Position numbers and translations under genes: made by a program
From: Paratrimastix pyriformis
Lineage: Eukaryota > Preaxostyla > Paratrimastigidae
Assembly (NCBI GenBank): GCA_027972325.1
Contig: JAPMOS010000005.1
Span: forward strand, 753,515-817,514
Length of the DNA stretch: 64,000 nt
Direction: 5' to 3'
Shown here: one piece after another, positions 8,501 through 64,000 of the stretch
How the letters are laid out: each line of letters begins with the position of its first letter
Position numbering within the stretch: the first letter of the stretch is position 1
Notes under the pieces: generated by a model
Seen by the model: the letters and a program-made list of their open reading frames with translations, nothing else
Database searches by the model: none
What the model was told of the DNA's origin: nothing

Positions 8501-8504
8501 AGAA

Positions 8505-11408: not shown

Positions 11409-12254
11409 ATGTCCGCTGATCTTGATATCAATGTGTTTGCCGCTCCAATGGCCGATGAGCAAGTCTCAGGAACTGCTGTGCAGCCGTTTCCAACGGTCAG
11501 ATGATTCGTGCATTTCGATCTGTTCTCACCGTTTCCGAATGTTCAGATGCCTCAGCAGCCCTTGATGCCTCAGCAGCCCTTGATGCCGCAACAAACTACA
11601 AGCGGCCAAGTGCCGCAACAAACTACAAGCGGCCAAGTGCCGCAACAAACTACAATCGGCCAAGCGCCTCAACAAAACGGAATGGTGCTTTCACCAAGTG
11701 AATCCCATGCATACGAAGTCTGTCTTCAAACACAATCCAGCCTCACCTCTCCCTCTCGTCCGACAGAACTTTAAGCTGCTCCACGCACGAGCAAGTCACT
11801 TGTATCCGGCTCTGGTCGAGAGTTTCCAGCACAACAGTGCGGACATTGAACGGCTCGCGGCCAAGGCCAATATCCCTGCAACCGATAGGAGAATCCTCAA
11901 GGTGCAGAGTCTGTTCCACTCCACTGATTCCACCCACATTTCCCACTAGAATTTGCTGGTGACATCACCTGTCTTGTCCTGAACAGCTTGGTCGCAATGG
12001 ATAAGGGGCTGATGGACGAGGCTGAAGCGAAGCTCCGTGAAAACTTCGAGTCCAACAAGAAGCACAGTGCAACGTTGGATGTCGATAGTCTCTACGTCGA
12101 CAAATGTTCTCGCACGAAGCGAGGCAGGCGCTCAGCGTCGGAGGAATTGGAGGATCTGAAGTGTGAGGCCAATATTGCCGCGTTGTTGGAGCTCATCCGC
12201 AAGGAGAAGAAGGACAAGGAGAAGAAGCCCGCAAAGGCATCAGAGGCCGCCTAA
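11409..12254 (+). CDS. small spliced gene of unknown function
   Basis: Proposed exons are 11409-11495, 11547-11717, 11767-11908 and 11950-12254. The introns start GTCAGA, GTCTGT and GTCTGT and end in AG, matching the unusual donor rule of the host genes in this window, and the frame stays open through all joins. The product is about 234 aa. It has an N-terminus with MPQQ and TTSGQVPQQ repeats, a central helical domain (NFKLLHARASHLYPALVESF, then DRRILKVQ), and a charged C-terminus with a probable basic cluster (SRTKRGRR) and a Lys/Glu-rich end. I recognise no family. It lies between two mobile elements, so it could be an element-borne structural or nucleic-acid-binding protein, but its introns look like host introns. 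Confidence 0.55.
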
Positions 12255-12295
12255 GTCCCATTTCGCTTCTTTTTTGCCCTTTGCACGTGCCCTTT

Positions 12296-12480
12296 GTGCC
12301 ACTTACCAAGAACCCGCCATCGACCCTCGATCTCCCCTTCTGAGCAACTGGCACACACATTCCCCCGCGCAACTCGTGTGCCACTTACCAAGAACCCGCC
12401 ATCGACCCTCGATCTCCCCTTCTGAGCAACTGTCACACACATTCCCCAGCGCAACTCGTGTGCCACTTGCTAAAACCCAT
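12296..12480 (+). repeat. 82-bp tandem repeat, about 2.2 copies
   Basis: A unit beginning gtgccacttaccaagaaccc repeats at 12296, 12378 and 12460 (period 82). The text ctgagcaactggcacac from the unit reappears at 13984 on the far side of element E3, showing that E3 inserted into this repeat tract. Confidence 0.75.
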
Positions 12481-12582
12481 CGATCGGGCCCCTAAGTACC
12501 TGTTGTTGTTGTTGTGATACTATTTCGACTGCCAGTAACTGCGCGCAAAACACAGAAAACTGAAACAGAAGAAAATCCGTTC

Positions 12583-12607
12583 ATCCGGTCGAAACCGGCG
12601 GGTAACA
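12583..12607 (-). other. conserved 3' hairpin of E3
   Basis: On the - strand: CATGTTACC, one to two bases, CCGGT, loop TTCG, ACCGG. Compared with E1 (CCGGC/GCCGG) and E2 (CCCAC/GTGGG) the stem changes on both sides together. Confidence 0.75.
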
Positions 12608-12724
12608 TGCCGACCTACACCCCCTCAGGGGTAGGCGCACAGACGGCATGGCGGGAAAGAGAGAGACTGGAATGTCGCCAGGAAACAGAATCGTTCAAAC
12701 ACTTGACAGCAAACAGAAGGAACA

Positions 12725-13909
12725 TCAAAAGAAAGAACGGGGCAAGGGGGGGGGACAAAAGGATCCAACACTGAGACACGGGACACGAGGAACAATGAAA
12801 GGGGGCGAAGGAAGCAAAAGACAAGAACAGTTAGAACGAAAAATATTCCCGAACCCAGCCTGAGGGGGGGGCGGAACCCATCCACCATGACCTACCACCT
12901 CGGTAGGACAGGCGCACGGGCCCCTGAATCCACCACCCCACACACGTTGCTCCCTTCCCAAAGGCCCACGGTTGGCAACAGGCGAGAGGTCGGAGAGGCT
13001 AATCTTCGGAGGCACGGCAGAAGCGGCATGGTCGGGCGTCGAGGTAGCACGAGCGGGCGCAGCAGGCACAGCAGACAAAGGGGACACACCAGCAGCAACA
13101 GAGGCAGCAACAGGGGCAACAACAGGGGCAGCAACAGGGGCAGCAACAACAGGGGCAGCAACAGGTGCAGGTGCAGGTGCAGGTGCAGGTGCAGGTGCAG
13201 GTGCAGGTGCAGGTGCAGGTGCAGGCGCAGGCGCAAGCGGAGCATGAGATGAAGTCGGAGCCGGAACAGGTGCCGGCTTGGCGAATGGGTTCGCCAAGGT
13301 GAGAGGTGCTCTTGGGGCAGCGGAAGAGGCAAATGGATTGCTCGAAGAAGGGGAACGGGCTCTCTCCTTCTTCCCCGCTGGACGATCGCCATCGATGATC
13401 GGGTGGCGAGTTCCACCTCCACCTCCAAGTTGCTTTGGACCACGGTATGTAGTCTCCCCAACAGATAGGAGGACTCGTTCTGGCGGTGTGCGGTGTTTGT
13501 CCACAGACGAGCCGCGCGATGATTCTTGTGGCACGTGGCAGTCGAAAGTTCGCACATTCGATTGCTGGAACAATAAAGCCCCAAGAAGTTGGAAAATAAA
13601 CTGGCTGATCGCTTCAGGCTGCTTCTTCGGATTGTCCTCCAGCAGCATGTGCACCGTGCGTTCGATGATCTCATAGCGTGGAGCACGGTGCTCATTGACG
13701 ACCAATGAACTGAAGAGCTTCATAAGCTCCAAACGCATCCAAGGAGAGAGCTTGTCCAATGGAGCTGAAGAGGGGGACCACAGATGCCGACCCAACTCAT
13801 CTTGAAGATACTCTACCATAGGGTCGTCACGACTTTGGATCTCGGCGTGATCCATAATAAAGTTGGAATCGTCCTTACTGAGCTCGTCATGCTCAGTGGC
13901 GATCTCCAT
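12725..13909 (-). CDS. ORF of element E3 (gag/ORF1-like, 394 aa)
   Basis: Open for 394 codons. Residues 1-130 are helical and charged (begins MEIATEHDELSKDD; ends near QSNVRTFDCHV). Then comes a Gly/Ser linker with NPFASS and NPFAKP, then a long Pro/Ala repeat (APAPAPAP, about 230-290), then a Pro/Gly-rich tail. The N-terminal domain resembles the E2 product in length and spacing: DD, then ML/MV, G.HL.S, and LL..... Q near the end. With no enzyme domain, it is most likely an RNA-packaging or ORF1-type protein. The role is inference. Confidence 0.5.
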   Translation of the reverse strand: MEIATEHDELSKDDSNFIMDHAEIQSRDDPMVEYLQDELGRHLWSPSSAPLDKLSPWMRLELMKLFSSLVVNEHRAPRYEIIERTVHMLLEDNPKKQPEAISQFIFQLLGALLFQQSNVRTFDCHVPQESSRGSSVDKHRTPPERVLLSVGETTYRGPKQLGGGGGTRHPIIDGDRPAGKKERARSPSSSNPFASSAAPRAPLTLANPFAKPAPVPAPTSSHAPLAPAPAPAPAPAPAPAPAPAPAPAPVAAPVVAAPVAAPVVAPVAASVAAGVSPLSAVPAAPARATSTPDHAASAVPPKISLSDLSPVANRGPLGREQRVWGGGFRGPCACPTEVVGHGGWVPPPPQAGFGNIFRSNCSCLLLPSPPFIVPRVPCLSVGSFCPPPLPRSFF

Positions 13910-13981
13910 GGCCAGAAACGGGCAGAACGCGGAGCAAAGGGAACGTGCAACGCCGAGACTTCAACCGGGGCCCCTAAGTAC

Positions 13982-14580
13982 CCCTCTGAGCAACTGGCAC
14001 ACCTAATCGAAAATGGGGCGTTTCGTGATGCTCCGGAGGCATAGTTAGACGCTTTTTGTCGTGTGACAGTTGCCCCCCACTCAGAGTGCCCTACTAATAT
14101 AGTATCAAGAATTTTTCTGGTCTTAGCACAATTTTGTTCTCCAATTTCTCCGATTCATGTTGCTTTTCCAAACGGGGGAGGGGCAAGGGGTTTGTGCATT
14201 TGCGAGAGACGAGATGGGCGGCAGGGTGGCCGAGGGTATCAAACGGCGCGATTTGCACAAGAGAAGTGCAGCCTGAGAGGTGCAAAAAAGAAACAGACGG
14301 AGCAGAAGACACGTTTGCGGGTGGAGAGTCCTTGGGCTAAGAGAGAAGATTGGATACGGCGAAATGTCGCGGCAAATCCTGGATTCACATATAAACCACA
14401 TGCGCGTATTGTTCGCATATAAACCGCATATCATAAAATCCACAATATAGAATATACGTGGCAAACCCCACATTCTATATTCTAGACGGCAAATTCTAAA
14501 ACGCAAATTGTACGGGATAAATTGTTGATATTAGCAGACCAGTTTATAAACTGGTCGATAAACCAGTCCGACCAGTTTGA
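13982..14580. other. spacer entering the AT-rich island
   Basis: No gene seen. It contains an inverted repeat AATATAGAAT / ATTCTATATT around 14444-14490 and a perfect 20-bp palindrome at 14537-14556 immediately before the S74 gene. Base composition shifts from GC-rich to AT-rich near 14,400. Confidence 0.5.
14537..14556. other. 20-bp perfect palindrome
   Basis: GACCAGTTTATAAACTGGTC equals its own reverse complement. It is followed by more accagt-type words up to 14600. Confidence 0.8.
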
Positions 14581-14581
14581 C

Positions 14582-16272
14582 CAGAAACCAAACCAGTCTA
14601 CATTTCCGGTTCATTTGAAATACTGCAGGGCATTTATCAATCAAGCTATAAAGATTATATAGGAACGGATGGTGCTGCATGCACGAACACTGAAACTGGA
14701 ACAAGTAACGCATTCCGTATCCGCACATACGATGACGCTGCTGTTGGACTTATCTATGAAAATTCGAATAATGTATGTAACTTCGCATCAAATTCAAATA
14801 CTGGTGCCTTTTCTATTCGGGGATTACTGACTGCAAATGGTGGCATATCAACACCTAAAATTACTCCAAGAACCCTATCAGCAAATCTGGGTCTAAGGTT
14901 GGGTTTTAAATCACCTGCTGACAACAATTGGGGTGTGTATTTGTCTGCAACCACTGCTTTCGATGGAACTTCAACTGCATGTGTGGGTAATGACTTCTCT
15001 GGACAAGCACTTCGTCTACGAACATATAGTGATGCAACAGCGGGTATAATCTTCGAAAATTCAAACAATGTAACCAACCTATCATGTAGCGGAAATAATG
15101 GGAATCTATGGGTTCGTGGCTTATTGACCGCTAATGGCAACGTAGCAACATCAAAAATCAGTCCAATATCAAGTGCAGGGTTGAAGATTTCATTGTCTAC
15201 AGATACCAATTGGGGCATATATCAAGCTGTCTCCGCAAACAATGATTTATCTGGATCTGGCTCAGCATGTTCTGGTGATGATATGAATAATGGAATTCGT
15301 TTACGGACTTATGATAGCACGTCAACAGGTGTCATTTTTGAGAACTCGAACAATGTATGCAACTTATCTACAAATTCAAACACAGGAACTCTATGGGTTC
15401 GTGGAAAAGCCACTTTTAATGGTGGATTAAAATTACCAAACACTGTATCTGGATATCTTTATAGTGATGCAAGTGGAAACGTTACCTCTACGACAGTCAC
15501 TTCCACTTCTGCTCAATCATGTTCAGCACTCAGTGGCTCTACCACATATATAACATCAACAAATAATTATGTAAACATATCTGGTGATACCGATAGTTCA
15601 TTCTATAATGCAAATAATGCAAACTATGGTGTCATCATTAATGCCGGTGGCGTCAATACAATGAACTTCGGTAAGACAAGAATTACTACACCTTTGGTAT
15701 GGAACACTTCACAGACAACTGGTGACTCCCTTCAAGTGTATATCGATTCTACAGGTAAACTTCATGTGCCTTCATCTTCACAACGTTACAAAGAAAACAT
15801 CAACGATATGGAAGACACATCATATATATATAATTTAAGACCCGTTAATTTCAACTTCATTAACGATGAAAAGAAAACGAAGTGCTATGGTTTGATTGCC
15901 GAAGAATGTGCCACCGTATGTCCTGAACTCGTTTATTCAAAAGATGGTGAAATTGAGGGTATCCGTCAAGATAAACTCCCCTTCATGATGCTCAATGAGA
16001 TGAAGAAAATGAAACAACAAATCACAGACTTAATAACTGAAAACACATCACTAAAAGCCGATATCGCTTCGATCAAGGCATCAATTGCATCATTAATACA
16101 ACCTTCAGTCAAATTCTCATCTACAGTGCCAACATCAACAACAAATAATAGTTTAACATTTTATGAAGGTGTTGTAGACGAGAGCATACATCTCATGGCA
16201 CGTTGGAAGAAGGATAACGTCTTAAAGGAACTTGATATGAACACAGATAATCAAAAACCAGTAAGCGAATAA
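14582..16272 (+). pseudogene. Peptidase_S74-type fibre protein gene, virus-like fossil
   Basis: The frame is open from about 14582 to the stop at 16272 without a clear ATG near its start, so the 5' end is uncertain; the remainder looks whole. The body has three repeats of about 90 aa, each with RLRTYD, FENSNNVCNLS and LWVRGLLTANG-like words (about 14720-15420), followed by a Ser/Thr/Asn-rich beta region. The C-terminus is a classic intramolecular chaperone (Peptidase_S74): SSQRYKENI, YNLRPVNFNF, YGLIAEE, then a coiled coil (about 15770-16110). Such modules trimerise and self-cleave in phage tail fibres and occur in giant-virus proteins. Strong AT bias against GC-rich neighbours argues for transfer. 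Confidence 0.75.
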
Positions 16273-16998
16273 ATAACGGTTTTATCATGAGCTGAATGTA
16301 TGAGACGATAATTAATAGATGATGATCTAAAGTGATGATAAAAAAGATAAAGAAAGAGAGTTACTGAAGGATATAGTAAAATGAAATGTCATATCTTTTC
16401 CCCCTAATTTTCCCACTCTCCCCCGAAATTTCTCCTGTTGACGACCTTTATGTTTATCATTCTTTCGTATTTTTCCATGTGATTTCCATCTAGGATTCAT
16501 TCGTTACTCATCGAGTTATTAAGGAGTTACTTTATGTAGTTACTGAAAATTCTCATCATACTTGATTTTCATTCTTCTGATCTAAATCATCTATGAAATA
16601 TCACTAAAAATAGTTACTCAAAAGAAAATAAACGACCAAATCCTTACCAGGAAATACCCCTATTTTCCCAAATAATCTACCCGAAAATCTTCCTTTAGGT
16701 AACTTTCTTGTGTTAAATCTTCTGACGTAAACCCATCATAAAGATCATTACCTCTATGACACGAACTTTCGAGTAACTCTTTAATAACTCCTTTAGTAAC
16801 TCCTTATATATAACTACTTATATGATCTTATATCAACATAACTTATTAATATCTATTAAAATATAATCATAAATATTACTAGTTAATAAGTTACTGAAGA
16901 GTTACTGAAATATAGATCATATAGTGTATCCATAATAATATGTTACTCTATCATCATTTCACGTCTACGACGTTCATGATGCTATCGTAACGCCCCCC
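16273..16998. other. AT-rich spacer
   Basis: No gene. Many repeats of gttactgaa, gagttact and agttactc words, giving a degenerate low-complexity tract that shares the base composition of the S74 gene. Confidence 0.6.
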
Positions 16999-17649
16999 TC
17001 ATATTAATAACATCATAATAGGAAAAGCTAAGAGTAGAATGGAGGCGCGAGCCGACATGATACGATATGAACCCAAGACTTCCATTAGTGAGGGGGAAAG
17101 AGCCAAAAAACAATTAGCCACAAACACTAGGTCCTGGCCGGCACTTGACGGCCTGTGGCAATGAGATGAATGAGCGGTGACAATACCGAACACCGACCTC
17201 GGCACCGGAGTTGACTCCGCAGGCAACGGCAACGGTAAAGGCCTTGCCGAGACTGGCACAGCCGCAACCGGACCAGGAGTACTGAAAAGAAATGCAATAA
17301 TGATCGTCACCAACGTCGACACAGACGTCAGGACCGAAAGAGGCAAAGCCTCAGAGCCCCCAAGAGCAGTCGCAGCACGTTCAGAAGAACTGCGCAGAAA
17401 GACCAGAAAAGGGGGGCGATGTAATGAATGAGGCGAACGCGCTCCAAGTCCGTCCCAATGCAAAAGGTGCAGCGGGAACAGTGCGAAGCGAACAGACCCA
17501 GAGATGGGAAAGTTCGACATTCGGACGGGAGAAAACAAGCGTTTCGCCAGAGGGAAAAACGATCGCGAACCGGGGTTGGCATCTCTATCTGTGCCGGTAC
17601 TCCGTTCCTTTTCTTTTCTTTCATTGCGCGAGGGGGATGATAATCGCAA
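16999..17649 (-). CDS. hypothetical ORF, 216 aa
   Basis: An uninterrupted - strand frame at the boundary where composition returns to GC-rich. The product is Ser/Arg/Pro-rich at the N-terminus with two hydrophobic stretches (around residues 130-160, LVTIIIAFLFS, and the last 20 residues, ILLLAFPIMMLLI), so a membrane protein is possible. No family recognised, and it may be a chance frame. Confidence 0.25.
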   Translation of the reverse strand: MRLSSPSRNERKEKERSTGTDRDANPGSRSFFPLAKRLFSPVRMSNFPISGSVRFALFPLHLLHWDGLGARSPHSLHRPPFLVFLRSSSERAATALGGSEALPLSVLTSVSTLVTIIIAFLFSTPGPVAAVPVSARPLPLPLPAESTPVPRSVFGIVTAHSSHCHRPSSAGQDLVFVANCFLALSPSLMEVLGSYRIMSARASILLLAFPIMMLLI

Positions 17650-17663
17650 CGTTTACATCAAAA

Positions 17664-17705
17664 GAGTAGAGATACTCTCTACTCCGAGGAACACGGGAGT
17701 GTTCC
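17664..17705. other. two adjacent perfect hairpins
   Basis: A 9-bp stem with a 3-base loop (GAGTAGAGA-tac-TCTCTACTC, 17664-17684), then a 7-bp stem with a 4-base loop (GGAACAC-ggga-GTGTTCC, 17688-17705). They are separated by three bases. Function unknown. Confidence 0.6.
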
Positions 17706-17811
17706 CTAGAGTATAACTGTAGTTTTGGGAAGTATCGACCCAAAACGAGCTTGTTTGGACCAAATTCGGGGTAAATCGGGGGAGTTTGGGCTAAGTTGGG
17801 GTACAACGTGT

Positions 17812-18132
17812 CGTCGGTCGACCATCACCCAACCGGGCTTGATCCGATCGGCAAACCGCGTGATTTCCAGTTGGCCCACACCCGGGGCAACCTCAAACCA
17901 ACGCGCAATCGGGTCCCCGAGTGAGTGGTGCATGGGTGGGGTCAGTCGGCAGGGTACCCTTCCCTATAGGGATGGGGTCGTTCGTCGGTCGACCATCACC
18001 CAACCGGGCTTGATCCGATCGGCAAACCGCGTGATTTCCAGTTGGCCCACACCCGGGGCAACCTCAAACCAACGCGCAATCGGGTCCCCGAGTGAGTGGT
18101 GCATGGGTGGGGTCAGTCGGCAGGGTACCCTT
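17812..18132 (+). repeat. 150-bp direct duplication
   Basis: 17812-17961 and 17983-18132 are essentially identical (offset 171), joined by a 21-base spacer containing the palindromes agggtaccct and ccctataggg. No coding content recognised. Confidence 0.85.
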
Positions 18133-18236
18133 GGAAAAAGTTCGGGTGGCATGCAATATCGCATGTCCGACTCCGACCACACCATGCCAAATTTCGATAC
18201 AGACCTTCGAATTATGCTTAGTTAAGTGGGTTAAGC

Positions 18237-19133: not shown

Positions 19134-29143
<10,010 letters not shown>

Positions 29144-29191: not shown

Positions 29192-38793
<9,602 letters not shown>

Positions 38794-39765: not shown

Positions 39766-41235
39766 TTAGAGGGCCAGAATGCCGCGCGGGCTGGGCGGAG
39801 GCGAGGCCACGGGGGACGGCGGCAGCGAGGTGGCGTGCGGTTCCATCTCGGGGGTCGAGTAGACCAGGGCGGCCGCATCGGCGCTGGTGTTGAGGCTGCC
39901 GTGGAAGGACAGGGACACGGCCGAGGGGCACGAGGTCAGCTCGGCGGAGGCCGTGGATGGGGTCTCGACGGCCAGGTAGGTCGAGGTGGACCCCATCAGG
40001 GTCCGGGTGAGGGCCTTCTGCCGGGAGGAGGCCCGGCTATAACCCTTGATGACGCCGCACTGGGCGCCGGTCGACCCGACGGCGCTGTGCCGGTCGGCGG
40101 ACAGGTTGACGGCAAAGTTGCTCGGCTGGAAGAGCTCCACCACCTCCTGCACCACCTGGGTGTAGCCGACGCAGGGCGCGTTGGTCTCGTAGCTGACGTA
40201 GCACTGGTGGGGCTCCGGGGTGATGTGCACGGTCATGAAGACATCCCCCAGCAGGACGTTGACGCTGTACCCGCAAGGGGTGAAGGCGAACTCGTCAATG
40301 AGCAGCTCCTGGTCGCGGAGGTGGGGATGGTCGGCCTGCAGGGCCATGGCGATATGCTCGACGAGTTTGCGGAATCCGCTGGCGGTGCTCATGCGCTCGG
40401 CAACCTCCTTGTCCGTGGCAGTGGAGGTCAGGGGGGCTTTACCGCCAGGCCCGGGGTTGGTCATGCACCAATTGCGGAAGAAATATTGCAAGGACGAGGG
40501 GTCAAGTTGGTACATGCACACCTCTAAGTGAGTGAGAGTGAGAGGAGTGAGGGAAAAAGTGTTTGAAAAACGGACCAATGGTTTGTTCACCACAGTGGTG
40601 AGGATGAACAACATCGCGGTCAAGAGTGTACACATACCAGCTAAGAAAAGGAATGTGTATGCAAAATAATGGCGAAGAGACGACAGACCGGCCGCCGTTC
40701 GAGCCAAGGATATTGGCGCCGCCACACTCGCCGGGATAGAGGGAGTCGAGCCACTCAACCTCGGATTCAAAATCCCTAGATACACAAGTCAGTAAAAAAG
40801 AAAGGAGCGCCCAAGGAGAACAGACCGATGGACGGAAATCTGGTCCGACGGGAAGAAGAAATTCCGGCGCGAGTACTGAAGGAAATCCATTTCATAGCCA
40901 TATGAGCGGGCAATATCGGTCAAGCGGGGCAGGCAATCAAGAAGAGTGGTGGTCCCGCACGTCTATAATGGGATAAAAAATCAAACTGAAGTGTCCCGCG
41001 GAAAAATACAAACCTTGATGATCACCTTGTGACGAAAAACAAACAAGGAACTTTCCGAGAGCACGTACGAGTCGATGTAGGAATTGGAGGTCCGGCTCAC
41101 GATCGAGCAGTGGCCATCGAGCAGAATTGCATCCCACTCGGAACGAGAGATGCGACGCAACCCTTGCTTGTCGTCGCTCTGGACAACGAAGTCCAGCTCC
41201 AGCTTCTTTTCGTTACCTTCAAAGCGGTTTGACAT
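39766..41235 (-). CDS. AMD1: S-adenosylmethionine decarboxylase proenzyme, 5 exons
   Basis: Exons (-): 41235-41014, 40962-40826, 40775-40689, 40640-40576, 40523-39766. They sum to 1,269 nt (422 aa). The pyruvoyl-dependent enzyme makes decarboxylated AdoMet for spermidine synthesis in the cytosol. Family motifs appear in order: FEGNEKKLELDF at the start, LSESSLFVF around the autocleavage serine, KTCGTTTLLDCL with the catalytic Cys (across intron 1), GRWYVYTLD, HCGEQTIEV, then FTPCGYSVN and VHITPEPHQCYVSYET. The length is somewhat over the usual 330-390 aa because of a Ser/Pro-rich C-terminal tail. Intron donors are GTTTGT, GTCTGT, GTCTGT and GTCCGT, and each join restores a conserved motif, which makes this gene the best calibration of the splice rule. 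Confidence 0.93.
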
Positions 41236-42293: not shown

Positions 42294-43302
42294 TTACTGC
42301 ACGCAGCACTGCTCGTCGCCCATCCGGGGGTGGGGCGAGCCACATGGGGGTGGGGGCGGCGGCGGGGGCGGAGTCGCGGGTGCTGGCGGGACCTGGGGGA
42401 ACAGCCGCTGCAGAAGCGAGTCGGCGGTCGGCCGCCGGCAGGGGTCCCGACTGAGGAGCCCCAGGATAGCCGACTCAACCTGGGCGAGCGGCAATAACCC
42501 CGGGGTCCGGTTGACTGACGCCAGAATTTGCCGAACGCGCCCGTGCAAGTCGGTCTCGGGCATGGAGTGTGGCGGACAGTCTCCCAGGAGATGGCGGAGT
42601 GCGGCGGGGGTGAGTCGACCGTACAGACAAATCAGAACAAGCCCAGCGGAAAACAGATCACTCTGCAAGGTGCATGGGACGTGCTGGGCCATCTCGGGTG
42701 CCGAGAAATAGTCGACCGGGACCGAGGGGGGAAGGAGGCACTGGGCCTGGCCGGAGACATCGCGTGCCCGGCTGAAATCACCCAGGAAGAGATGCCCCGA
42801 GCAGATGAAAATACTTGCAGGCTAGATGTGATGATGATGATGTTAGCCAAGAGACGTCGTGTGGAGAGACCTTGAGGTTGCAATGCATCACCCGCTCATT
42901 GCAGAGATATTCGAGCACCTCCAGGAGTCGTTGGAAGGCCTGGTCGCATTGCTCCATAGTTATCGTGCCGAGAGGAGCTTGGTCCATCCTCACGAAATCG
43001 CACAGCGGCAGGACCAGGCAGATATGCTGACTGGAATGATCCTGCGACACTCGTCGAAAGATATTGATACAGGGAACGATGCCACTGTGTCGCAGCCTGC
43101 CTTGCAAAAATCCCTCTTGGATGCAACTGTCGAAGAGAGACTCGTCTAAACTGCAGTCCACCTCCTTGATGGCCACGACATTGTTCGTCTGAAGGTCCTG
43201 CATTTTATAAACATGGCTGACATCATCGGAAAATATAAGAGTCCGTGGGACAGTCTGGCCATCCTGTTGGGTGGCCGGGAAATCCTGGTAACGGGCAGTC
43301 AT
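42294..43302 (-). CDS. pseudokinase, 2 exons
   Basis: Exons (-): 43302-42871 and 42821-42294. They total 960 nt (319 aa). The kinase fold is recognisable: VVAIKEV (beta3 lysine), ERVMHCNLKPASIFI (catalytic loop), LGDFSRA (DFG position), SAPEMA (APE). The catalytic-loop HRD is HCN, the KPxN asparagine is Ser, and DFG is DFS, so the phosphotransfer residues are missing while the overall fold is conserved. The C-terminus is Pro-rich and short. The intron donor is GTCTCT. It is likely a scaffold or regulatory pseudokinase. Confidence 0.75.
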
Positions 43303-43652: not shown

Positions 43653-44311
43653 ATGTCTGCCGTTCCGCCTCCTCCTCCTCCTCCGACCAACGCTGAGGTC
43701 AAGGAATTCGATAAGAACTCTCTCCGGCATCGCAAGGGTCTGTCTTCATTCTGATTTTCTTTCTCCCATTTTTTTGTTGAAAAACTGCTCTTCAATTATT
43801 TTTTTCCTCCCTCTTTTTTTTATACTAGCCCCGGAGCCTGTTTCTGAGGCCGTTATCCAACGGACTCACCATGAAATCACTTCCTTTGACCATGATTCTC
43901 TCAAGAAGACCGCTGTTCTTTCCTCTCCGCCTGCGGTTGCTCAACTCCGGATTCAACATGAGGTGCAGACTTTCGATCCTTCCCACCTTGAGCATACCAC
44001 CACATCATCGGGGGTGGATTCCATTGCTGTCATGAAGACCCAGCATGCTGTCCAGCATTTTGACAAGTCCACTCTTAATCCTGCCCGGAGTCTGGAAATT
44101 GTGATTTTCCTTTCTTGTTTTTGCTCATTCCCATCTTTCTCTAGCCGTCGAGCCCGTCCCTGCCACGACAGTGCTTAAGATGCAGAGTGAAGTGGTTCAC
44201 TTCGACCACGCCAATCTGCGCACTGTTGCTCCTGAAGTCAAGAATGAGCCGGTGGTGTTGGGTTCTCCGGCCCCTTCTTCGACTGCTCCTTCTCCAGCTG
44301 CTCCGCAGTGA
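43653..44311 (+). CDS. multi-repeat beta-thymosin / actobindin-like actin-binding protein, 3 exons
   Basis: Exons 43653-43737, 43829-44089 and 44145-44311 total 513 nt (170 aa). Five related segments are visible: VKEFDKNSLRHRK, ITSFDHDSLKKTAV, VQTFDPSHLEHTT, VQHFDKSTLNPART and VVHFDHANLRTVAPE. Each fits the beta-thymosin/WH2 pattern: an amphipathic helix, FD...L, then an LKKT-type linker; only the second keeps a canonical LKKT. Such proteins bind monomeric actin. The N-terminus is polyproline (a possible profilin site), and the C-terminus is Pro/Ala-rich. Introns begin GTCTGT and GTCTGG. Confidence 0.85.
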
Positions 44312-53448: not shown

Positions 53449-53560
53449 TCCAAATTCAACAGAAAAAAAAGTAGCCAAGATCACCCGTGTCATATCGAAC
53501 CATGCGCCGGAAAAGCCTTTCCGTCCAGCTGACCAGCGCCAAGGGCCCGAAGAAGAAAAA
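53449..53560. promoter_or_regulatory. short divergent promoter region
   Basis: About 112 bases separate the U-box ATG (53448, -) from the preferred ATG of the next gene (53561, +); an alternative ATG at 53502 would leave only 53 bases. Confidence 0.5.
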
Positions 53561-56029
53561 ATGGAACGGCCGCAACCAATGGACACCCATCAACGCCAAC
53601 CCGACACCCGTTCGATTTCTGACCGAGCAAAACAAACAGTGAAAACCTTTTTTGACAGCGGCAACATTCGCAACGAGGACTTCGCCGAGAATTGTGTGTT
53701 TCATCGCAACAGCAAGTCTGGTGATGTTTTTTCCCCTTCTTCGCTCACCGCCTCTTCTTTACGCCAGCCTTGGGATCATCAATAAGGACATTGCTTTTCT
53801 TTTCCTGGGCGACCTGCAGCGCGCCTTCGGCCCCATCGGGGTTCACGAGCGGATCTGCGAGTGCAATGTGAACAATCTTGTTTGTCTCTGGTACAAGATC
53901 ATCCTGCACCATGAGGGCAACTTCCGCGGAACGGGCGAGCCCACCCACAAGTCATGCATCTCCACATGGGTTTGCTTCTTGCGGTACGACGACAACCATC
54001 GCATTGCCGAGGTGTTTTGGATGCTCGATATTGACAGTGTAAAATCCGGACTTGGCATTCGGATCGAGGTCCGCGGGATCCTTCTCCTTCCGTTTTCCTG
54101 ACCACCTGACCACCACATCGCACACAGTATCCCACGGGCGTGCAAGATTGCGCCCGGAGCCCGTCCAATGTTGTTGCACCGACAGAAGCTCTTGTCCCCG
54201 GTTGTGAACGCAACTACACTCTTGCCACCCGCCTCTTGAGCCAACTGAGCGCCTGGAACCCCACTGGTCCCGCCCAAGTGCCCGAGGTGGAGGCATTCGC
54301 TGATTCGTATCTGCCCTTCCGCGATCTGCTCTGCAACAGTTTTCATAACATTTCCTTTGTGCCCCGAATGTGCCTCTGTGATAACGCTCGGTCAGTCGTC
54401 CCACAGCTCCTTCCAAACACACTCACCACGATTCGCAGGACTGTGATGCTCTGCGAAATGCGTTGTGCCGTCTACCGCGAGTTCGAGTCGCTGCCGACGA
54501 CCTTCTTCCCTTGTCGGTGCTTCTGCGCCTTCTCGTTTTCGCACGAAGCAGCGCCGACCGAAAGCCCTCAGCCACGCTTCTTTGCCCAAATTGACACGAC
54601 GACCCTGAGGGCTCAATGCCGCATGGTCCCTCTTGAACCGACCCCGGTCGAAACGACCGAGGCAAGCATGCTCCGGTTGCTGTATCTCTGTGAACTGGGC
54701 TGCCAAAACGTGGCCGACTTTGGCCAGGTTGTCTGGCACGACATGTGCTGCCACGCTCTCCCGCTGCACCTGAAGGACCGCTTCGGGGGTGGTGTGCATG
54801 CCCTCACGGACATGTTGCACTACTGGAACGAGAAATGTGAGGGACTCAAGGTCTCTCATCCCTCCCACCCTCTGGCACTCATCCGTCGTTTAGCTTCGCG
54901 TGATCCACTTGGTGGCCTCCCCGAATTTCGCCGCAGCGTACCTCTCCATCAGCGGCAAAAATCGAAGCCCCATCAGCGGGAGTCAGCCAACTTACCGGAG
55001 ATTCACTGTTCCCGGTGCACTTTTCGCCCAGGCACAGCAGGGGCGTTTCCGCCAGCTGTGGTTCTACTTCGACATCCCTGCCATGTACCGCCACCTTGGG
55101 ATCCCCTTGCCCACTGCCGAGAAGCTCTACACCCCCGCCCAACACCACGTCGTTCCCTGTGAGGTGCTGGGCGACGTCGAGCGTCATAACCTGGTCTGCT
55201 TCCTGTTTGTCCACAAACCAATCCTCTTGGGCCACCAGACCCAAGCAGAGGTCCTTTGGCACTTCATCTGCGACACGAACAAGGATCTCCACCGTCTGCT
55301 TGTGTTCTCACTTCCCCTTCAACGCTCATGCCTTCCCAGAAACACTCCGCCCTCTGTTTAACGACAACGTAACCCTGGTGACGCACGAGACGCACCCATT
55401 TTTCGATTTCGAACGGGCCGTGACCGACCTCCAGGATTCTCGTGCACCGTTCGGGGGACTCCGCGCTCAAGTGTGCCTGGCTGTGTGCAATGCCACCTCT
55501 TGCGCCCTCTGGCTACGGTTGACCGGACATCAGGAGCGCTACTGGATGGGTGCCTATCCCGAACCCGGCGGAGAGAAATCCAAAACGTTCGCCACCGATT
55601 GCGTTGCCTTCTACCGATTTGACCCTCGCGAACACCGCATTGGTCTTTCCTCATCATCATCCTATCGCACCAACCACCACTTCTTTTCCTTCAGTGAATT
55701 TGGTACACCTCCGCAACCGTGTCACCAAGGCCATCGAGCTTGGCGTGGATAACGGAGAACTGTTCGCAGCAGGTTCACTGCAGCAGTTCGATCTGGCCGC
55801 CGCCAAGGCACGACAACGGGGTCGTGCTGGGGTCCATGTCCCTCCTCCGGCCCCTGCCCCGGTCATGGCGCCCTCGCTTCCCCCAGAGCAGCGGGCAGAA
55901 CAACGCCCCGCCCCCCCCGGTCCAACACCGCCAGAGAGCCAGCAGCAGGCAGCCCCTCCGAGCAAAGAGGAGCAAGCCGTCTGGCGGGAGGTCCAGAAGA
56001 TTCAGGAGGCAGCAGGAATTGCGCCCTAA
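53561..56029 (+). CDS. protein with possible NTF2/SnoaL-like N-terminal domain, 6 exons
   Basis: Exons 53561-53715, 53768-54068, 54128-54850, 54894-55293, 55340-55642 and 55695-56029 total 2,217 nt (738 aa). The N-terminal roughly 150 residues (VKTFFDSGNIRNEDF ... HHEGNFRGTGEPTHKS ... IAEVFWMLDID) have the helix and curved-sheet pattern of the NTF2/SnoaL fold. The middle contains a similarly sized second unit and further alpha/beta sequence without a recognised family. The C-terminus is a Pro/Gln/Ala-rich tail (PPESQQQAAPPSKEEQ) ending in a short helix. Introns are only 44-59 nt and start GTCTGG, GTCCGC, GTCTCT, GTCTGC and GTCTTT. Function unknown. Confidence 0.65.
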
Positions 56030-56359: not shown

Positions 56360-58689
56360 TTAGAGGTCGGGCTCCTCCTCCTCGGTGAAGACGAAACCAG
56401 TCTGGAAGACCTGCAGTCGCACGACAGGCGTGGGCAAAAAAAAAAAAAAAAAGAGAGAAGAGGGCACGGCAGCAGAGGCCATCCCGTGTGAGCAAGAGAG
56501 AGAAATCGCACACAAGAAGACAACATCCGTCCATCCATCACCACCCCACATCACCATCAACCGCCCCCACCAGAATCGTCGTCACCGGGGGGGCGGGGCA
56601 GACCAGGGGGTCCTCGAAGACGCTCATGTTCCACAGGAAGACCGTGGCGGCGATCAGGATGAGGATGAGCAGCAGGCCCGTCCAGAAGTTGATGTTCCAC
56701 AGGGAGGCGTTGATGGTCTCGGCGGCGGGGGCATCGTTGCCGACGGCGGGGCTCCGGGTGGTCGGGATGGCGGGGACTTGGGCGGCGGCGGTCAGCAGGG
56801 CGTTCGAGGGGGACATCAGCTGAGGGGGAGGAGTGAGGGGGGGGCGGTCAGCAGGGCGTTCGAGGGGGGACATCAGCTGAGGGCGGGCGGGATGGGCGCA
56901 GAGGATGGTGAGCGAGGGAATGGGTGGTAAAATGCAGAGCGCGCTGCGAATGGACGGACACAGCGGATGGGATGACGGGGGGGGGGGGGGGGGGGGGGAT
57001 TGGTCGAAAGGGCGCGAGAAGTGCGGAGGGGATGGAGGGAGGATCTCGGGGAATGAATGGGCGGCACGACGGATCCTCCATCCTCCCTCCCCCCTCCCCG
57101 AAAGAAACAGATAAACACCCCTTTGTGCCCGCCCTCAAACATGCGCACCCGCCGCACACCGACAGGCCACACAGCCCTGACAGCACCCTGCCCCCGTCAC
57201 ACACAACACAGTACACGTACACACCGACACACCAGCCCACACACGCCGGTACACACCGACACATCAAGACAGCCACAGCCAGGCCCGACGGACCATGGAC
57301 TCGTCGTGGTTCTGGGGGGTCAGCGAGGGGCACTCGGCGGCCATGGGGGTGGCGATGACGTGCAGGTTGATCTTCTGGGCGGCCAGCAGGGCCAGGGCGC
57401 CCTCGAGCAGCCGCTGGGCGGCGGGCAGCTTGGTCACGGGCAGCGACTGGGAGGCCGCCAGGGCAAGGACGTACTGCGGGGAGGGGGGTTGAAGGGAGGT
57501 AGGCTGTGGGTTGAGGTGGTGGTGGCAAGAGAGGATGTCACCCCCCCCCCCCAAAAAAAAAAGAACAATGCACATCCCAAACACCCACAGCCCCCCCACT
57601 TGCACTCCCAAGCCAGTCCCCCCCCCCCCCCGGCGCGGCAAAAACCGAAAAACCGAACGAGGAGGCATCGCCCCTCCCCACTCCCTCCCCAGAGAGATTG
57701 ACATTGGCGTTGGCACGGGTGGCACGGGGTGGCGGACCTGGTGGGTGTGGGCGTGGCGGGCCTCGGCAGACAGGCGGGCGGGCATGCCAAGAACCAGGGC
57801 GAGATCCGCAAGGAAGGCGCGGTCCTCCTGGGGGGGGGGGTGGGGGGATGAGTGGATGGAACCCGGCACTATACCATGCGCCAGAGTGGTCCGGCATGGA
57901 GGGGGAGCGCGACAGGACGCGACGAGGGGCCAAACCCCAGGCGTTCCGGCAACCCACCCCCCCAAAAGCGAGCCAAAGGGTGGTTTGTGGGGCAGACCAG
58001 GGCGGAGTAGGCGAAGGTCACGCCGTCAAAGGTCAGGGTGGCAGTGGAGGCGTCGTGGGAGGCACCCAGGACGACGGCAATGTCTGTTATGGCGAGCAGG
58101 AGATTGTGGAAGTCCGTGTGAGGAGGGGATCGGGCAGACCAGCCAGGCTGTCCGCGGAGATGGTCTGGGGGGTGAGCATGCGAACGTGGGAATTCTTGAT
58201 TTGCCCTGGAAGGCGAGGCAATGAATAGGGGGTGGGGAGAATGTGCAGAAAAGTGACAAAATCCGGGCAGACGAGCAAAATTCTCGGGGAATTCGCAAAC
58301 GGTCTCATCAAGAGAATAAGAAGAGAAACTTTGCGAATTAAGAGAGCCCGAGGGAACTATTCACATCGAAAAAGACCCCAAAAAAGGAAGAAAACGTCCG
58401 TCAGAGCGGGGAAATCGAGGAATGAGGACGAGAGACGGGAAAAAGGATCTGCGAAAAGACCATCAGCAAGAACAGTAACAGTGGTCCGAGGGGAATCGTT
58501 CATCATCGAAACGTGAATGGGGCCAAAGTCAAGCCGCTCCGAGCGAGACATGCGGGCAGAGAGGAAAGAGAAAGCGTCCGAAGACGAAATGCGATTTTGC
58601 TGGTCCAGGTTGAAGGCGCCCGAGAGGACCGAGAAAGAAGACGCAGCAAGGCACAAAACGGGAAGGAGCACAAGCAGGAGCTTCTGCAT
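56360..58689 (-). CDS. ATP6AP2: V-ATPase accessory protein / renin-receptor-like (ATP6AP2), 7 exons
   Basis: Exons (-): 58689-58461, 58205-58140, 58083-57998, 57827-57738, 57473-57294, 56819-56604, 56410-56360. They total 918 nt (305 aa; human about 350). A signal peptide (KLLLVLLPVLCLAASSFSVL) is followed by a lumenal domain. The domain has PRTTVTVLADG near residue 70 and EDRAFLADLALVLG...HTHQYVLALA, which parallels the FL..L..VL ... Y.LELAGL region of the renin receptor. A single TM ends in FLWNMSVFEDPL, like the IWNMDPGYDSII junction of ATP6AP2, and then an acidic tail (TEEEEPDL). The protein would assist assembly of the proton pump in endomembranes. It lacks an obvious KKxx-type end. The assignment rests on pattern, not alignment. 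Confidence 0.6.
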
Positions 58690-58804
58690 TTTGCTTTGTT
58701 TCCCTCAAGTCAGGTAGCCCCCGGAGACACAGACTATATTCGTTTGCCGTTCGGCTTCGCTTCTCCCATTTACCCAGTCCCCTGAGCGCACGGTACGATC
58801 CTCG
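58690..58804. promoter_or_regulatory. 115-bp divergent promoter region
   Basis: Lies between the ATP6AP2-like ATG (58689, -) and the Kelch gene ATG (58805, +). Confidence 0.5.
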
Positions 58805-61800
58805 ATGGGGCTTCGCCACTCCATTTGCAGGTCATCCTCAAAGGAGAGGTCAGTATTGGGTTTTCCAGAGCCTTCCCTCACTTTTTCATCAGGACGATCG
58901 CTCCCGCCCCGTGGTTTTGACCATCGTATGGATAACCCTTCGCCAATTCTTCGAGCTGTTCTTGCTTCTGGAGCAACCACTCCTCCAGGCTGCGTTTCTG
59001 CCGTCCCCTCGGGTGCATCACCCAGGCACTCACCGCGCCCCTCCACGAAACACACTCCCCTTCCGGCCTCATCAACGCCAACACACCCACCCAGGGTTCG
59101 TGATACCGTCCGGGCCACACTGGCCGCACTTCCCTTCCCGCTGTCATCATCCCCGGGGGGAGGACTCCCCTCTCTGGCGGCGCTCTTCCCGGGGGTTCAG
59201 TCGACACTGTCGACAGCCCCCCTGTTGCTGCCGCAACCCTTTCTGGACACCCCCCGCACCCTCCCCCGGCTACCGTCCCCCTTCCTGATCCACACCCTGG
59301 CCTCGCCGGCCACAACCCAATCGGCCCCCACGCCGGTCCCACGAGGCGCATCGACGCCCACTGCCACCGCCACCCCCACCCCGCGGCCGTTCGGGTCCCT
59401 GCCCGTGCTGCCACCCTCGTCGCTATCACCCCGACCCGCTCCACCCCACCGGCAAGGTCGACCCACGCCCCTCGTCCGCCGGTCGGCGCCATCCCTGATC
59501 ATCGCCGCTGCCACCGCCACCGCCACCAACACCCACCCCGTGGTGGGCCCCGAATTGACCATCACGTCATCCCACCCCGCCACCCTCCACCGGGCGGCCC
59601 GCGAGCATCCCGCCCCGCCGCCCCTCCCGCCGCCTCACCCGGCCGCACCCTCGCCTCCCCCACCCCATCGCCTGGTGGGTCTCGCCCCCACGCCCCCGTC
59701 CGCGCCCCCCGGGCGGCTCCCGCGGCCCTCGCCCATGCACCCGCACCCGAGTAGTCCAGCCGGTAGGGCGTCGGGTCCGTATGCCGAACCACCCGGGATC
59801 GAACCCGATCAAAGCCCCGTCCCGCTGACCCCGAGCGACTTCCCGCCGCCCCTCCCGGCTGGGCTGCCTGCGGGCTTCGTGGACGTCTCGCTCGACTCGG
59901 CCAACAACAACAACAACAACAACCAGTCCATGGACTCATCCACATTCAGCTTCCTGGCCCAGCCCCCGCCCACCCAGCCCGACAGCGACCCGTGCCGGTG
60001 GTCGCCCGCCCTCCCGTACCCGGGTGAGCCCCGCCAACCACAACCGCCGCCGGGCGATTCTGACACCACCAGCGCGGTGGATGGGACGACACACACACCG
60101 GCGGCTCAACAAGCCATATTGGGCGAGAGCCACCATCCGCCACCACCACCCGACCTCACCCCACCCCTACTTGATGTCTCCGCCGCCGCCCCCACCGCCA
60201 CCGCCACCGCCACCCCGGCACCGCCGCCGCCGCCGCCGCCACCACCACCACCACCACAGGCGCTTCTCCCGCCCTCGCGCGGGGGCGGCGGCTCGCGGGC
60301 CATGCTGCGCCATTCCCCGCTGCTATATGTCTACATACCCCCCCATCCCGAGGAGGACGATGACGATGACACCGCCACCGCCCATCGACATCCCCCCCTG
60401 CTGTACCCGGCCTGTGGAACCCCGCCCCCCGGCGCGGTGGCTCTCCCCGCCAGGGATGGCGATAGCCCCACGAGCCCCCCAGACTCCGCCACCGCCACCA
60501 CCGTCCGGCCGCCCCAGCCCTGGGGTGAGAATGACGAGGACCTGGGCGCGGCGCGGCAAGGGCAGGTTCACCACCACAGTTCAGGGGGGACATCGACCAT
60601 AATCATGCCGACATCACCCCGGGGGGATACACCCCGCCCCGGCATGCCGACATCACCCCGGGAACAGCAGCATCTGCGCACCTCGATGGCCCAGCTGCCC
60701 CCGACCCTCCTCGTCACGACCCGGTCGCCCATCCCGCCCGCGTGCCAGTGGACCCCCCTGGAGACCCACGGCGACGCGCCCAGGCCCCGGGCCGGCCACC
60801 GGGCCTGGTGGACCCGCGAGGGGAGGCTGGTGGTGGTGGGCGGGTACTCGCATGCCGAGAGCTACCTGACCGAAGGTCTGTATTGCGAACGCATGTCGTG
60901 TGTGTCATGTCTGTGTGTCATGTCTCTGTGTCATGTCATGTCTGTGTGTCATGTCTCTGTGTCATGTCATGTCTCTGTGTCATGTCATGTCTGTGTGTCA
61001 TGTCTGTGTGTCATGTCTGTGTGTCATGTCTGTGTGTCATGTCTTCATGTCTGTGTGTCATGTCTGTGTGTCATGTCTGTGTGTGTCATGTCTGTGTGTG
61101 TCATGTCTGTGTGTGTCATGTCTGTGTGTGTCATGTCTGTGTGTGTCATGTCTGTGTGTGTCATCTGTGTGTGTGTGCGTGTGCTGGTGGTGAGCGGGTA
61201 CTCACATGCCGAGAGCTACCTGACCGAAGGTCTTGCCGCCGCCTTGTGGGTGTCGTGTGTCGTGCCGTCATGTGTCGTGCGCTCATTCACTTCCCACCCG
61301 CGCTCCCCCCCCCCCCCCCCCCCCTCCCCGTCCACCCTGCGCCCCTCACAGCCCACTTCTACGACCCGCGCACGCACCTCTGGACCCGGGCCACCCTCCG
61401 CGGCACCCCGCCCCCGGTCCGCTACGGCCACCACTGCGTCTACCACCCCGCCCTGAACCGGCTTTACTTCTTCGGGGGCCTCGACGCCAGCGATCCCACC
61501 AACCCGGTGCATACCCTTGACATGCGCACCCTGGAATGGGCCGAGGAGGACGTCACCGGGGTGATCCACCCGCCCCCCGTGGCCTGGCACCAGTGCTTTG
61601 TGCTGGAACCCCATCCGGGCTTCTTCGTCTTCGGCGGGATGACCGCTGATGGGAGGCCCGTGAACGCGCTGTACTACTACGACCCCGTCTCGCACGCCTG
61701 GTTTGACTTGGCCCAGGCAGGCACCGTGCCCTCACCCCGGGCCTACCACACCTGCGTCCCGGTGCCCGGGGGCGGCCTGCTGCTGTTCGGGGGTGAGGAT

Positions 61801-62745
61801 GACCGCCGCCGGATTTTGAATGATCTGGTCTTCCTGCACGGGGCGAGCATGACCTGGGTGCCCGTGCTGACCTCGGGCACGGTGCCCCACGGCCGCGACG
61901 GGGCCGCCTTCTGGGTGCAGGCGGGCGCGCTGTGGGTCCACGGCGGGTGGGACTTCCGCGCCCGGAACCAGGCCGATATGTACCGGCTGGACCTGGCGAC
62001 CTTCCACTGGGAGGCGGTCGGCAGCGCCCCGGCCGCCGTGGGGCCCTGTGCCCGCAGCTATCATCAGTGTGCCGTCGACCCGGAGGGGATGGTGTACATG
62101 GTGGGGGGTTGGACGGGCCGAAACCGGTACGCCAACGACCTGTGGGTCTGGCGGGGCACGGAGGGGGGCGGCGGCGAGGAGGATGAGGCGGAGGGTCGCC
62201 GGGGGCCCGGGCGGCAGAGGGAGCGGACCCCGGCGGCCGCGCTCTACGCCAATGCATGCTCCCGGATTCCGGCCAGTATGCGCGAGGTCTGCTGTTGTGT
62301 TGGTTCGGCTGTTGTGTGGATGGTGGGGAATAGTGCCTGCGGGGGAATATCCACTAATTTCATTTTTTTTTTGTCTCCCTTCCCCCTCCTCTCCTCCCAG
62401 ATGTTCCCCCGCAGCCCGCCAACCACCCCCAACGCCCTGCTCTCGCTGCCCTTCCACGCGCACTACCCCACCCCGCCCGAGACGCCCACCTCACCCCACC
62501 CCAATCCGCCGCTCCCCAAACTCCGGGCAATCCCCAGCCCCGCACCGCCACCCATGCTCTCGCCCCTGGTGGCCGTGGGCCGGTCGCCCCAAGTCATCCC
62601 CGTGCAGATCGCCCCGGGGAGGAGGAGACCTGAGGCGTCACCCGCCCGGCGGCTTGCGGTCGGGCGGGGCACTTTGGGCGCAATGCAGAAGGAATTGCTG
62701 GAGGCGGAGTCCGTGGTGCAGCAGGTGGAAGATCGGGAGAAATAA
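58805..62745 (+). CDS. Kelch-repeat protein with long Pro-rich N-terminus, 3 exons
   Basis: Exons 58805-60875, 61352-62286 and 62401-62745 total 3,351 nt (1,116 aa). The first roughly 650 residues are disordered, rich in Pro, Ala, Ser and His, with polyproline runs (ligands for SH3/WW/EVH1 domains). Then come Kelch blades: GRLVVVGGY, RLYFFGGLD, GFFVFGGM, GLLLFGGED, ALWVHGGWD and MVYMVGGWT. Each carries the GG doublet, with the Y/W pair about 20-30 residues later, making roughly six blades of a beta-propeller. The C-terminus is Pro-rich and ends in a short coil (EAESVVQQVEDREK). An alternative start is the ATG at 58928. Introns begin GTCTGT and GTCTGC. Probably a scaffold; the partner is unknown. 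Confidence 0.8.
60895..61175 (+). repeat. tgtctgtgtgtca minisatellite in Kelch intron 1
   Basis: About 20 imperfect copies of a 12-14 bp unit, bracketed by two copies of the exon-1 end. Confidence 0.9.
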
Positions 62746-63035
62746 CCCGTTCAACTCCCCCCCCCCCTGTTCAAACCCCTCGCCGGCTTTATTTGAACAA
62801 TTTCCATAATTGTAGTTTTACACTCACTTTGCGAAACAAGACCCGATCGATCTTTTTTTTCCAGATTCATTCGGCAGAAAACTTCGCCGGCTCATTCGAG
62901 CTCCGACTTCCTTCCCTTACTTCCCTGACTTCCCGCGCTTTCTTGAATTTGCCTGCAGCTGCGTTCAAGTCCCAGGGCCCTAAAGACCATCCCCAAACAA
63001 CCAACTTTGGTTTTTCCGGGTCTTCGGGCTCCATC
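62746..63035. promoter_or_regulatory. tandem intergenic region
   Basis: 290 bases between the Kelch stop and the ATG of the SH3 gene, same strand. It must hold a terminator/polyadenylation region and a promoter; none is obvious. Confidence 0.4.
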
Positions 63036-64000
63036 ATGGACCCAGTCAGAGTTTTTATGGCGCTATTCGACTACCGTCGACTTCGAGATGATGAAATTGA
63101 TGACATCAAGGAGGGTGACGTGCTCATCTCACCGCGTCAGTCACATTCTCCCGTTTGTCACGAATCGAAGCCTCTCCCTAGCCCAAGTTCCGAATCCCGA
63201 GCGAGTCCAAGTCAGATCCCTGACCCTCCCTCGGAAATCTGGCTTCATCCCCCTCTCGATGCTCAGCGAGCTCTCCGATCCTCAGGAAGTTCTGAAGTAT
63301 CGGCGGCAATACCAGGTCTGCGTATCTCCGGCAACCTGTTAAGATTTTGTTGGTTTCCCAGTCCTCGATTGTCCCGAATTTTCCGAAGCTCTCCGAGCTC
63401 ATGGCGGCGCTCCCCGGCAATACCCCATCCCCGCCTTCTTCTGGCAACGCAACAGCAGTCCCCGCACACACGCCATCAGTCGCGAGCCTCGCAATCTCCG
63501 AGTGTATCTTACCCACCGGCACAGGTGGTGGCGATGAATCCGGTCTGCATGACCTCTTTGTCAAATTCCAATTTTTTTTCACGCCGCCGGCATCACCCCC
63601 CGCATATGCAGCGCGCGCCGCGGCCCGGCATCCCATCATGTCCTGGTGTCGGTCGCTACCCCCCGAGGGTCCATGCACCGAGCAGGACATCGGCACCCTG
63701 GTCTCCCTCTTCCGGCACCCGCTCTTCTTCAGTGACCCGGCGATATCCACCCCGCTGGTGGAGGCCTTCGTCCGGCTGACCCCGGCCAACGCGGCCGCCT
63801 TCGGGCGGGCCGGCATGGGGGTCGCCCTGACGGCCATGGTCGCCCATGAGGGTACCATGCGCCGACATGGGGATTATGTCATGCGGGGCATGTTGGCCCT
63901 GGCCGAGTCCCAGGTGCGGCTGCGGGCACAGCTGGGCAGGGGGCCCGTGGTCGGGATGCTGGTGCGCAGGCTGGCCGAGTGGTCTGGCGGCCCCTGCCCG
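63036..64000 (+). CDS. SH3-domain protein, 5' part (runs off the window)
   Basis: Exons 63036-63135, 63182-63315, 63389-63542 and 63612 to beyond 64000. The N-terminus is a split SH3 domain: VFMALFDY (ALYDY motif), DDEIDDIKEGDVL (DELSF.EGD), then across intron 1 RVQV and GFIPLSML (the G-IP-Y/L strand). The canonical WW pair before the G is not seen, so ligand binding may be altered. A Pro/Ser/Thr linker and a helical region (LVEAFVRLTPANAAAFG, MRGMLALAESQVRLRAQ) follow, possibly ARM-like. Introns begin GTCAGT, GTCTGC and GTCTGC. Confidence 0.7.

Follow-up and report, generated by a model that had tools for sequence, protein, structure and literature searches.

In Paratrimastix pyriformis, a free-living protist of the Preaxostyla (Metamonada), the spliceosome looks like an ordinary U2-type one, and its 5' splice site code has very probably been rewritten, with the U1 small nuclear RNA (snRNA) compensating, such that donors and U1 have changed together. 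The window analyzed here is a 64,000-nucleotide stretch of the 56.06 Mb, 495-contig genome assembly (positions 753515-817514 of contig C441). This reading draws on donor composition, on the sequences of the U1, U6, U5 and U2 genes and on calculated U1 pairing, from which we infer that the pairing between U1 and the donors is used in splicing.

Donor sites carry a pyrimidine at position +3

Introns were called by spliced protein-to-DNA alignment, with GT at the intron start and AG at its end as the only constraints. Three NCBI proteins were aligned in the window: a kinase (P0121, 1587/1587 residues, 16 introns), a SAM decarboxylase (P0001, 'adenosylmethionine decarboxylase [Paratrimastix pyriformis]', spliced product 422/422 identical, 4 introns) and an NTF2-like protein (P0193, 707/707 residues, 7 introns). 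The gene models of this species were built with intron hints from RNA sequencing and with PASA (PMC10703272). Another 39 introns came from actin-family loci elsewhere, where a search returned 40 exon matches in about 13 places; nine loci were chosen and aligned to human actin, eight of them yielded introns (locus L048 gave none), and about four further places were left out of the count.

All 27 window introns are GT..AG and have a pyrimidine at +3 (C 24, T 3), as the initial annotation had claimed for some 55 introns of the window, of which these are the ones re-anchored on NCBI models. The 39 actin-family introns have C 33, T 5, G 1 and A 0 at this position, which brings the whole set of 66 to C 57, T 8, G 1 and A 0, with a purine in 1/66. 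Position +4 is T in 36, C in 23, G in 4 and A in 3 of the 66, +5 is G in 56/66, and +6 is T in 30 and C in 27. The annotation had also called the pattern genome-wide; the actin-family loci extend it beyond the window, bringing its base to 66 introns from 11 of the 12 gene loci aligned.

Ten doubtful rows (nine actin, one NTF2-like) were dropped to give a strict set of 56, because a length divisible by three together with an open frame makes them possible in-frame inserts. Several of the dropped rows carried GTCYGY donors, and the sole donor with a purine at +3 (GTGGAC) was among them. In the strict set +3 is C in 49 and T in 7, a pyrimidine in 56/56 and a purine in 0/56. The 243 other GTs lying within 40 nucleotides of the same donors do not show this skew (+3 G 100, T 76, C 56, A 11), so chance is excluded, with binomial P values against these neighbors of 1.4e-15 for a +3 pyrimidine and 2e-24 for +3 C. 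The most frequent strict-set donors are GTCTGC (11), GTCTGT (10), GTCCGC (8), GTCCGT (7) and GTTTGT (4). The motif GTCYGY proposed initially has the right pattern and is slightly too strict, as it fits 36/56 donors and GTYYGN fits 47/56; the invariant donor core is GTY, mostly GTC.

Among 59 introns, position -3 of the acceptor is C or T in 57/59, and the branch-site motif is weak (CTNAY in 30/59, versus 18 in shuffles). De novo prediction of paired GT..AG sites gave 29 pairs in 264 kb at the lowest threshold, with +3 C 23, T 2, G 3 and A 1, which is supportive of +3 C, though imprecise.

U1 genes carry a double change opposite +3 and +4

A search with the Rfam U1 model (RF00003), with scores computed for 41 of the 992 first-look candidates, found eight U1 loci, and a DNA search with one copy found the same eight. 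All span positions 1-166 of the 166-position model (L001 with an E-value of 7e-15), and one is on the same contig as the window. The 5' end reads AUACAGACCU in 8/8 loci, versus the canonical and Rfam consensus AUACUUACCU; all eight carry ATACAGACCT, and the extended shared start reads ATACAGACCTTGCTTGG. Nucleotides 5-6, which lie opposite +4 and +3, are thus AG instead of UU in 8/8 loci, and in the one copy aligned these are the only mismatches to the Rfam model among the first ten letters. A U1 altered opposite +3/+4 was the check that the initial annotation had named beforehand for its donor claim. The U1 sequence was also searched in viral contigs, with no match.

The motif CCCATAA lies upstream at -59/-60 in 8/8 U1 loci, at -66/-67 in 4/4 U6 loci and at -52 to -54 in 7/7 U5 loci. 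We read it as a common snRNA promoter element, and its nearly fixed distance in 19/19 loci (L001-L019) speaks for genuine snRNA genes. The eight U1 genes are presumably expressed, with a mature RNA beginning at the A of this 5' end (ATACAGACC included).

The altered U1 fits the donors

With U1 nucleotide 6 placed opposite +3 and nucleotide 5 opposite +4, duplex energies were computed for the species' own U1 and for canonical U1. The own U1 is better for 56/56 strict donors, with a mean of -8.7 kcal/mol versus -3.8 kcal/mol for canonical U1, and the 243 neighboring GTs average -3.6 kcal/mol with the own U1. Among the GTs within 40 nucleotides, the own U1 singles out the true donor as its one best match in 48/56 cases, and canonical U1 does so in 28/56. 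In an earlier set of 59 introns, compiled before the NTF2-like introns were added and before rows were dropped, the own U1 was better in 58/59. Of the 16 dinucleotides possible at nucleotides 5-6, AG came second by energy and gave the most Watson-Crick pairs.

These results suggest a shift of the donor from GTRAGT/GTATGT to a G|GTCTGT-like form (GTY, mostly GTC; T or C at +4; G at +5) that would be compensated by the double change from UU to AG giving 5'-AUACAGACCU. In such a duplex U1 G6 would form a Watson-Crick pair with +3 C and a wobble with +3 T, and would not pair with purines, which would explain why C dominates at +3, T is in the minority and A is lacking. A5 would pair with +4 T, and C4, A7 and C8 as usual with +5 G, +2 T and +1 G. 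GUCUGU-like donors would thus be found by U1 through ordinary pairing of its altered 5' arm.

Other spliceosomal RNAs look ordinary

The U6 box AUACAGAGA, read in the context ATACAGAGA, is unchanged in 4/4 copies found, U5 loop 1 is ordinary (CGCCTTTTAC in 7/7 loci), and so is the U2 branch box (GTAGTATCTGTTC in one copy read of 10 matches). The first seven U1 nucleotides (AUACAGA) match the U6 5' splice site box letter for letter, which makes GUCUGU suitable for both RNAs. After unwinding of U1, the unchanged U6 box may pair the same donor letters (+2 to +6, UCUGU, with ACAGA, an exact complement that is perfect in 10/56 strict donors), and U1 and U6 would thereby share one best donor and no longer request different ones. 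The initial annotation had offered recognition through U5, U6 or proteins as the alternative to a changed U1. The matching AG in 8/8 U1 loci indicates a recoding of U1 itself, with no need for a bypass; the part concerning U6 stands in so far as its unchanged box also pairs the new donor and may contribute to recognition.

Alternative explanations and points against a recoded U1

Several observations weigh against a recoded U1 that reads these donors. The best U1 score (60.2 bits) lies below the Rfam gathering value of 69.5, and the 41 of 992 candidates scored leave room for an extra divergent U1. U1-C and U1-70K had no match in searches with the zf-U1 hidden Markov model, a human U1-C query, a motif and PF12220, the last of which also matched no control; introns could hide either gene. 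The single zf-U1 match of the genome search (locus L040, about 1477-2060) has a zinc finger plus a WW domain, and we take it to be a WBP4-like splicing protein, not U1-C. With regard to pairing, GG at nucleotides 5-6 would on average pair better than AG, +4 is C in 21/56 strict donors and so forms an A-C mismatch with U1 A5, and 9/56 lack the +5 G or the +4 pyrimidine. The +4 C might be tolerated, or accommodated by a modified A5 or by helper proteins. Several de novo pairs (GTCATC, GTCATG) match at +3 and not at +4/+5, a ranking of GT hexamers by drop in coding signal was uninformative with a codon model that was too weak, and the junctions are less certain at the actin-like loci L047 (133/390 identical) and L049 (160/358 identical).

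Some of these points would suit a spliceosome in which U1 is dispensable, the choice of donors falls mainly to the unchanged ACAGA box of U6, together with proteins, and the U1 change is a by-product. Such a system has been suggested for Entamoeba, whose donors are GUUUGU and which is reported to lack U1 (PMC6085484, PMC13292270), and would agree with the UCUGU complementarity described above and with the failure to match U1-C or U1-70K, the latter in a family search without a working control. Nevertheless, all eight U1 genes keep the remainder of the 5' arm, the promoter element and an exactly compensating pair of changes, a pattern that drift is not expected to give, and the one copy aligned fits the full U1 model. 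We consider a dispensable U1 unlikely.

It is highly improbable that these are ordinary introns with canonical donors whose junctions were misplaced by at least one nucleotide. Slippage is possible where exon and intron ends share letters, and the aligner did produce one false intron in the SAM decarboxylase; however, three NCBI proteins agree exactly with the spliced products, and the U1 genes independently match the donors found. The unusual donors might also bring to mind minor (U12-type) or unconventional euglenozoan-like introns, an assignment that has very little in its favor given the exact GT..AG ends, the C or T at acceptor position -3 and the presence of U1, U2, U5 and U6. U12 introns have the donor GTATCC, unlike the donors here; it occurs in 0/66, in a set where ATATCC and AT-AC introns would be undetectable as GT was required, and U11 and U12 RNAs were not searched for. 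Mixed cultures are common in such protists, a point in favor of contamination or pseudogene U1 copies, an explanation we regard as scarcely credible, since the 1.1 Mb contig that contains the window also carries a U1 copy, 8/8 copies agree at the 5' end, and two full-scoring 5.8S loci have common flanking ribosomal DNA.

Comparison with known systems

The recoded U1 keeps the register of canonical U1 (ACUUACC with GURAGU), its pairs with G+1, U+2 and G+5, and the U6 ACAGA box. A budding yeast survey reported U1 candidates in 227/230 yeasts and 9/10 outgroups, all with ACUUACC, unlike P. pyriformis with A at nucleotide 5 and G at nucleotide 6; +4 switches there came without compensatory U1 change, a change of position 5 to A being raised only as a possibility (PMC10581693). 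The yeast trend ties METTL16 to +4 A (PMC10581693). P. pyriformis departs from it, as a METTL16-like domain with the NPPF motif is present and +4 is nevertheless a pyrimidine, so a missing METTL16 cannot explain the +4 state.

Entamoeba histolytica, with GUUUGU donors and a U1 snRNA reported absent, shares the +3 pyrimidine, UGU at +4 to +6 and the good U6 match, and differs from P. pyriformis, which has eight recoded U1 genes and mostly C at +3 (PMC6085484, PMC13292270). In the larvacean Fritillaria borealis most introns lie outside the GT/AG rule and the U1 5' end is reported to be strictly conserved; a whole-genome splice site shift with a conserved spliceosome is common to both organisms, judged here from 66 introns, but P. 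pyriformis keeps GT/AG and alters U1 (PMC13326754). The diplonemid S. specki also has a naturally altered U1 5' end, in that a stretch of C occurs in one of its two U1 genes, whose complementarity to the donor is comparable to that of the normal copy, whereas in P. pyriformis all U1 copies found are changed and the donors have co-changed (PMC12621601). For Giardia, the U1 sequence printed is ACUUAC (PMC3510501). The Preaxostyla relative Streblomastix strix, an oxymonad, is likewise intron-rich and GT-AG, and differs in the A, U and G reported at +3 to +5 (PMC1501061). We presume this to be the starting state, and the recoding was therefore probably derived in the Paratrimastix line. Among the open-licence matches listed, no title or opening of an abstract mentions a naturally recoded U1 or Paratrimastix donors, the diplonemid alternative U1 excepted, and in the text of the P. 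pyriformis genome paper 'snRNA' is absent and one word begins with 'splic' (PMC10703272).

Genes and other features of the window

The introns located in the window are listed in Table 1. Codon-only gene prediction, which missed known SAM decarboxylase introns and gave unreliable junctions, was used for queries and for the pseudokinase. The coding lengths given in the initial annotation were recovered for the SAM decarboxylase (1269), the pseudokinase (960, by codon-based prediction) and beta-thymosin (513, with by-eye junctions); in the last, joining at the two donors leaves no internal stop, and neither intron length is a multiple of three. The kinase length of 4605 was obtained with acceptors 26453 and 20000 and the same donors as the NCBI model, which together remove 53 residues (159 nucleotides) from the 1587-residue protein. 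The NCBI kinase model is possibly wrong at these two acceptors (26528/26453 and 20084/20000), the shorter choice joining K directly to VSDFG. By contrast, the 2217 nucleotides given for the NTF2-like gene do not agree with the 707-residue NCBI model, and neither 3351 for the Kelch gene nor 918 for the ATP6AP2-like gene was reached with the weak codon-based predictor, the only one used for them. In the SAM decarboxylase the aligner also proposed a fifth intron (GTTGCC, 99 nucleotides, in frame), which was removed before counting because the NCBI protein has four.

Table 1. Introns located in the window, with the evidence for their junctions
Intron	Position	Strand	Donor	Evidence and remarks
Kinase 1	28562..28642	-	GTTTGT	NCBI protein P0121 alignment
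Kinase 2	27655..28257	-	GTTCGT	P0121 alignment
Kinase 3	26528..26703	-	GTCTGC	P0121 alignment; alternative acceptor 26453 gives 25 amino acids less
Kinase 4	25895..26219	-	GTCTGT	P0121 alignment
Kinase 5	25065..25254	-	GTCTGC	P0121 alignment
Kinase 6	24016..24527	-	GTCTGT	P0121 alignment
Kinase 7	23691..23832	-	GTCCGC	P0121 alignment
Kinase 8	22917..23595	-	GTCCGT	P0121 alignment
Kinase 9	22537..22764	-	GTCCGC	P0121 alignment
Kinase 10	21679..22430	-	GTCCGC	P0121 alignment
Kinase 11	21308..21612	-	GTCCGC	P0121 alignment
Kinase 12	20725..21168	-	GTCCGT	P0121 alignment
Kinase 13	20357..20625	-	GTCCGC	P0121 alignment
Kinase 14	20084..20264	-	GTCCGC	P0121 alignment; alternative acceptor 20000 gives unbroken K-VSDFG
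Kinase 15	19715..19932	-	GTCCGG	P0121 alignment
Kinase 16	19506..19646	-	GTCCGT	P0121 alignment
SAM decarboxylase 1	40963..41013	-	GTTTGT	NCBI protein P0001, 422/422
SAM decarboxylase 2	40776..40825	-	GTCTGT	P0001 alignment
SAM decarboxylase 3	40641..40688	-	GTCTGT	P0001 alignment
SAM decarboxylase 4	40524..40575	-	GTCCGT	P0001 alignment
NTF2-like	53716..53767	+	GTCTGG	NCBI protein P0193, 707/707
NTF2-like	54069..54127	+	GTCCGC	P0193 alignment
NTF2-like	54391..54438	+	GTCAGT	P0193 alignment
NTF2-like	54851..54893	+	GTCTCT	P0193 alignment
NTF2-like	55194..55238	+	GTCTGC	NCBI model; 45 nucleotides, open frame, doubtful
NTF2-like	55294..55339	+	GTCTGC	P0193 alignment
NTF2-like	55643..55694	+	GTCTTT	P0193 alignment
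Beta-thymosin 1	43738..43828	+	GTCTGT	By-eye junction; outside the 66
Beta-thymosin 2	44090..44144	+	GTCTGG	By-eye junction; outside the 66
Pseudokinase	42822..42870	-	GTCTCT	Codon-based prediction only; outside the 66

Several window introns, for example 21679-22430, are packed with repeats of the (ATC)n type or with long tracts of poly-G/C. Positions 2200-10660 hold broken frames that by eye resemble a B-family DNA polymerase and a helicase, together with inverted near-copies around 4440-4750 and 5360-5700, and this region looks like a mobile or virus-like element. An AT-rich open reading frame with repeats lies at 14600-16270, although the sampled part of the genome has 62% GC, and its end, by eye, presumably resembles a tail-fibre self-cleaving chaperone. 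Positions 33100-35550 show a by-eye resemblance to a reverse transcriptase/RNase H remnant of a retroelement.

Implications for splice site recognition

The U1 5' end is regarded as among the most invariant RNA sequences in eukaryotes. Here U1 and presumably thousands of donors appear to have co-changed, which makes it testable how such a code changes without killing the cell. It is fairly likely that U1 and U6 became readers of the same word, with one donor optimal for both recognition steps. If true, this would remove the conflict of other eukaryotes between the demands of U1 (GUAAGU) and U6 (UNUGU), the U1 pseudouridine pair (positions 5-6) would be gone, and +3 and +4 would be fixed by Watson-Crick pairing in both helices; to our knowledge, and within the literature searched, this would be the first natural case of a U1 code rewritten on both sides and genome-wide. 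The lineage also bears on the need for the two U1 pseudouridines and on the trade-off between U1 and U6 demands on the donor, and gene prediction tools whose training relied on GTRAGT may fail here.

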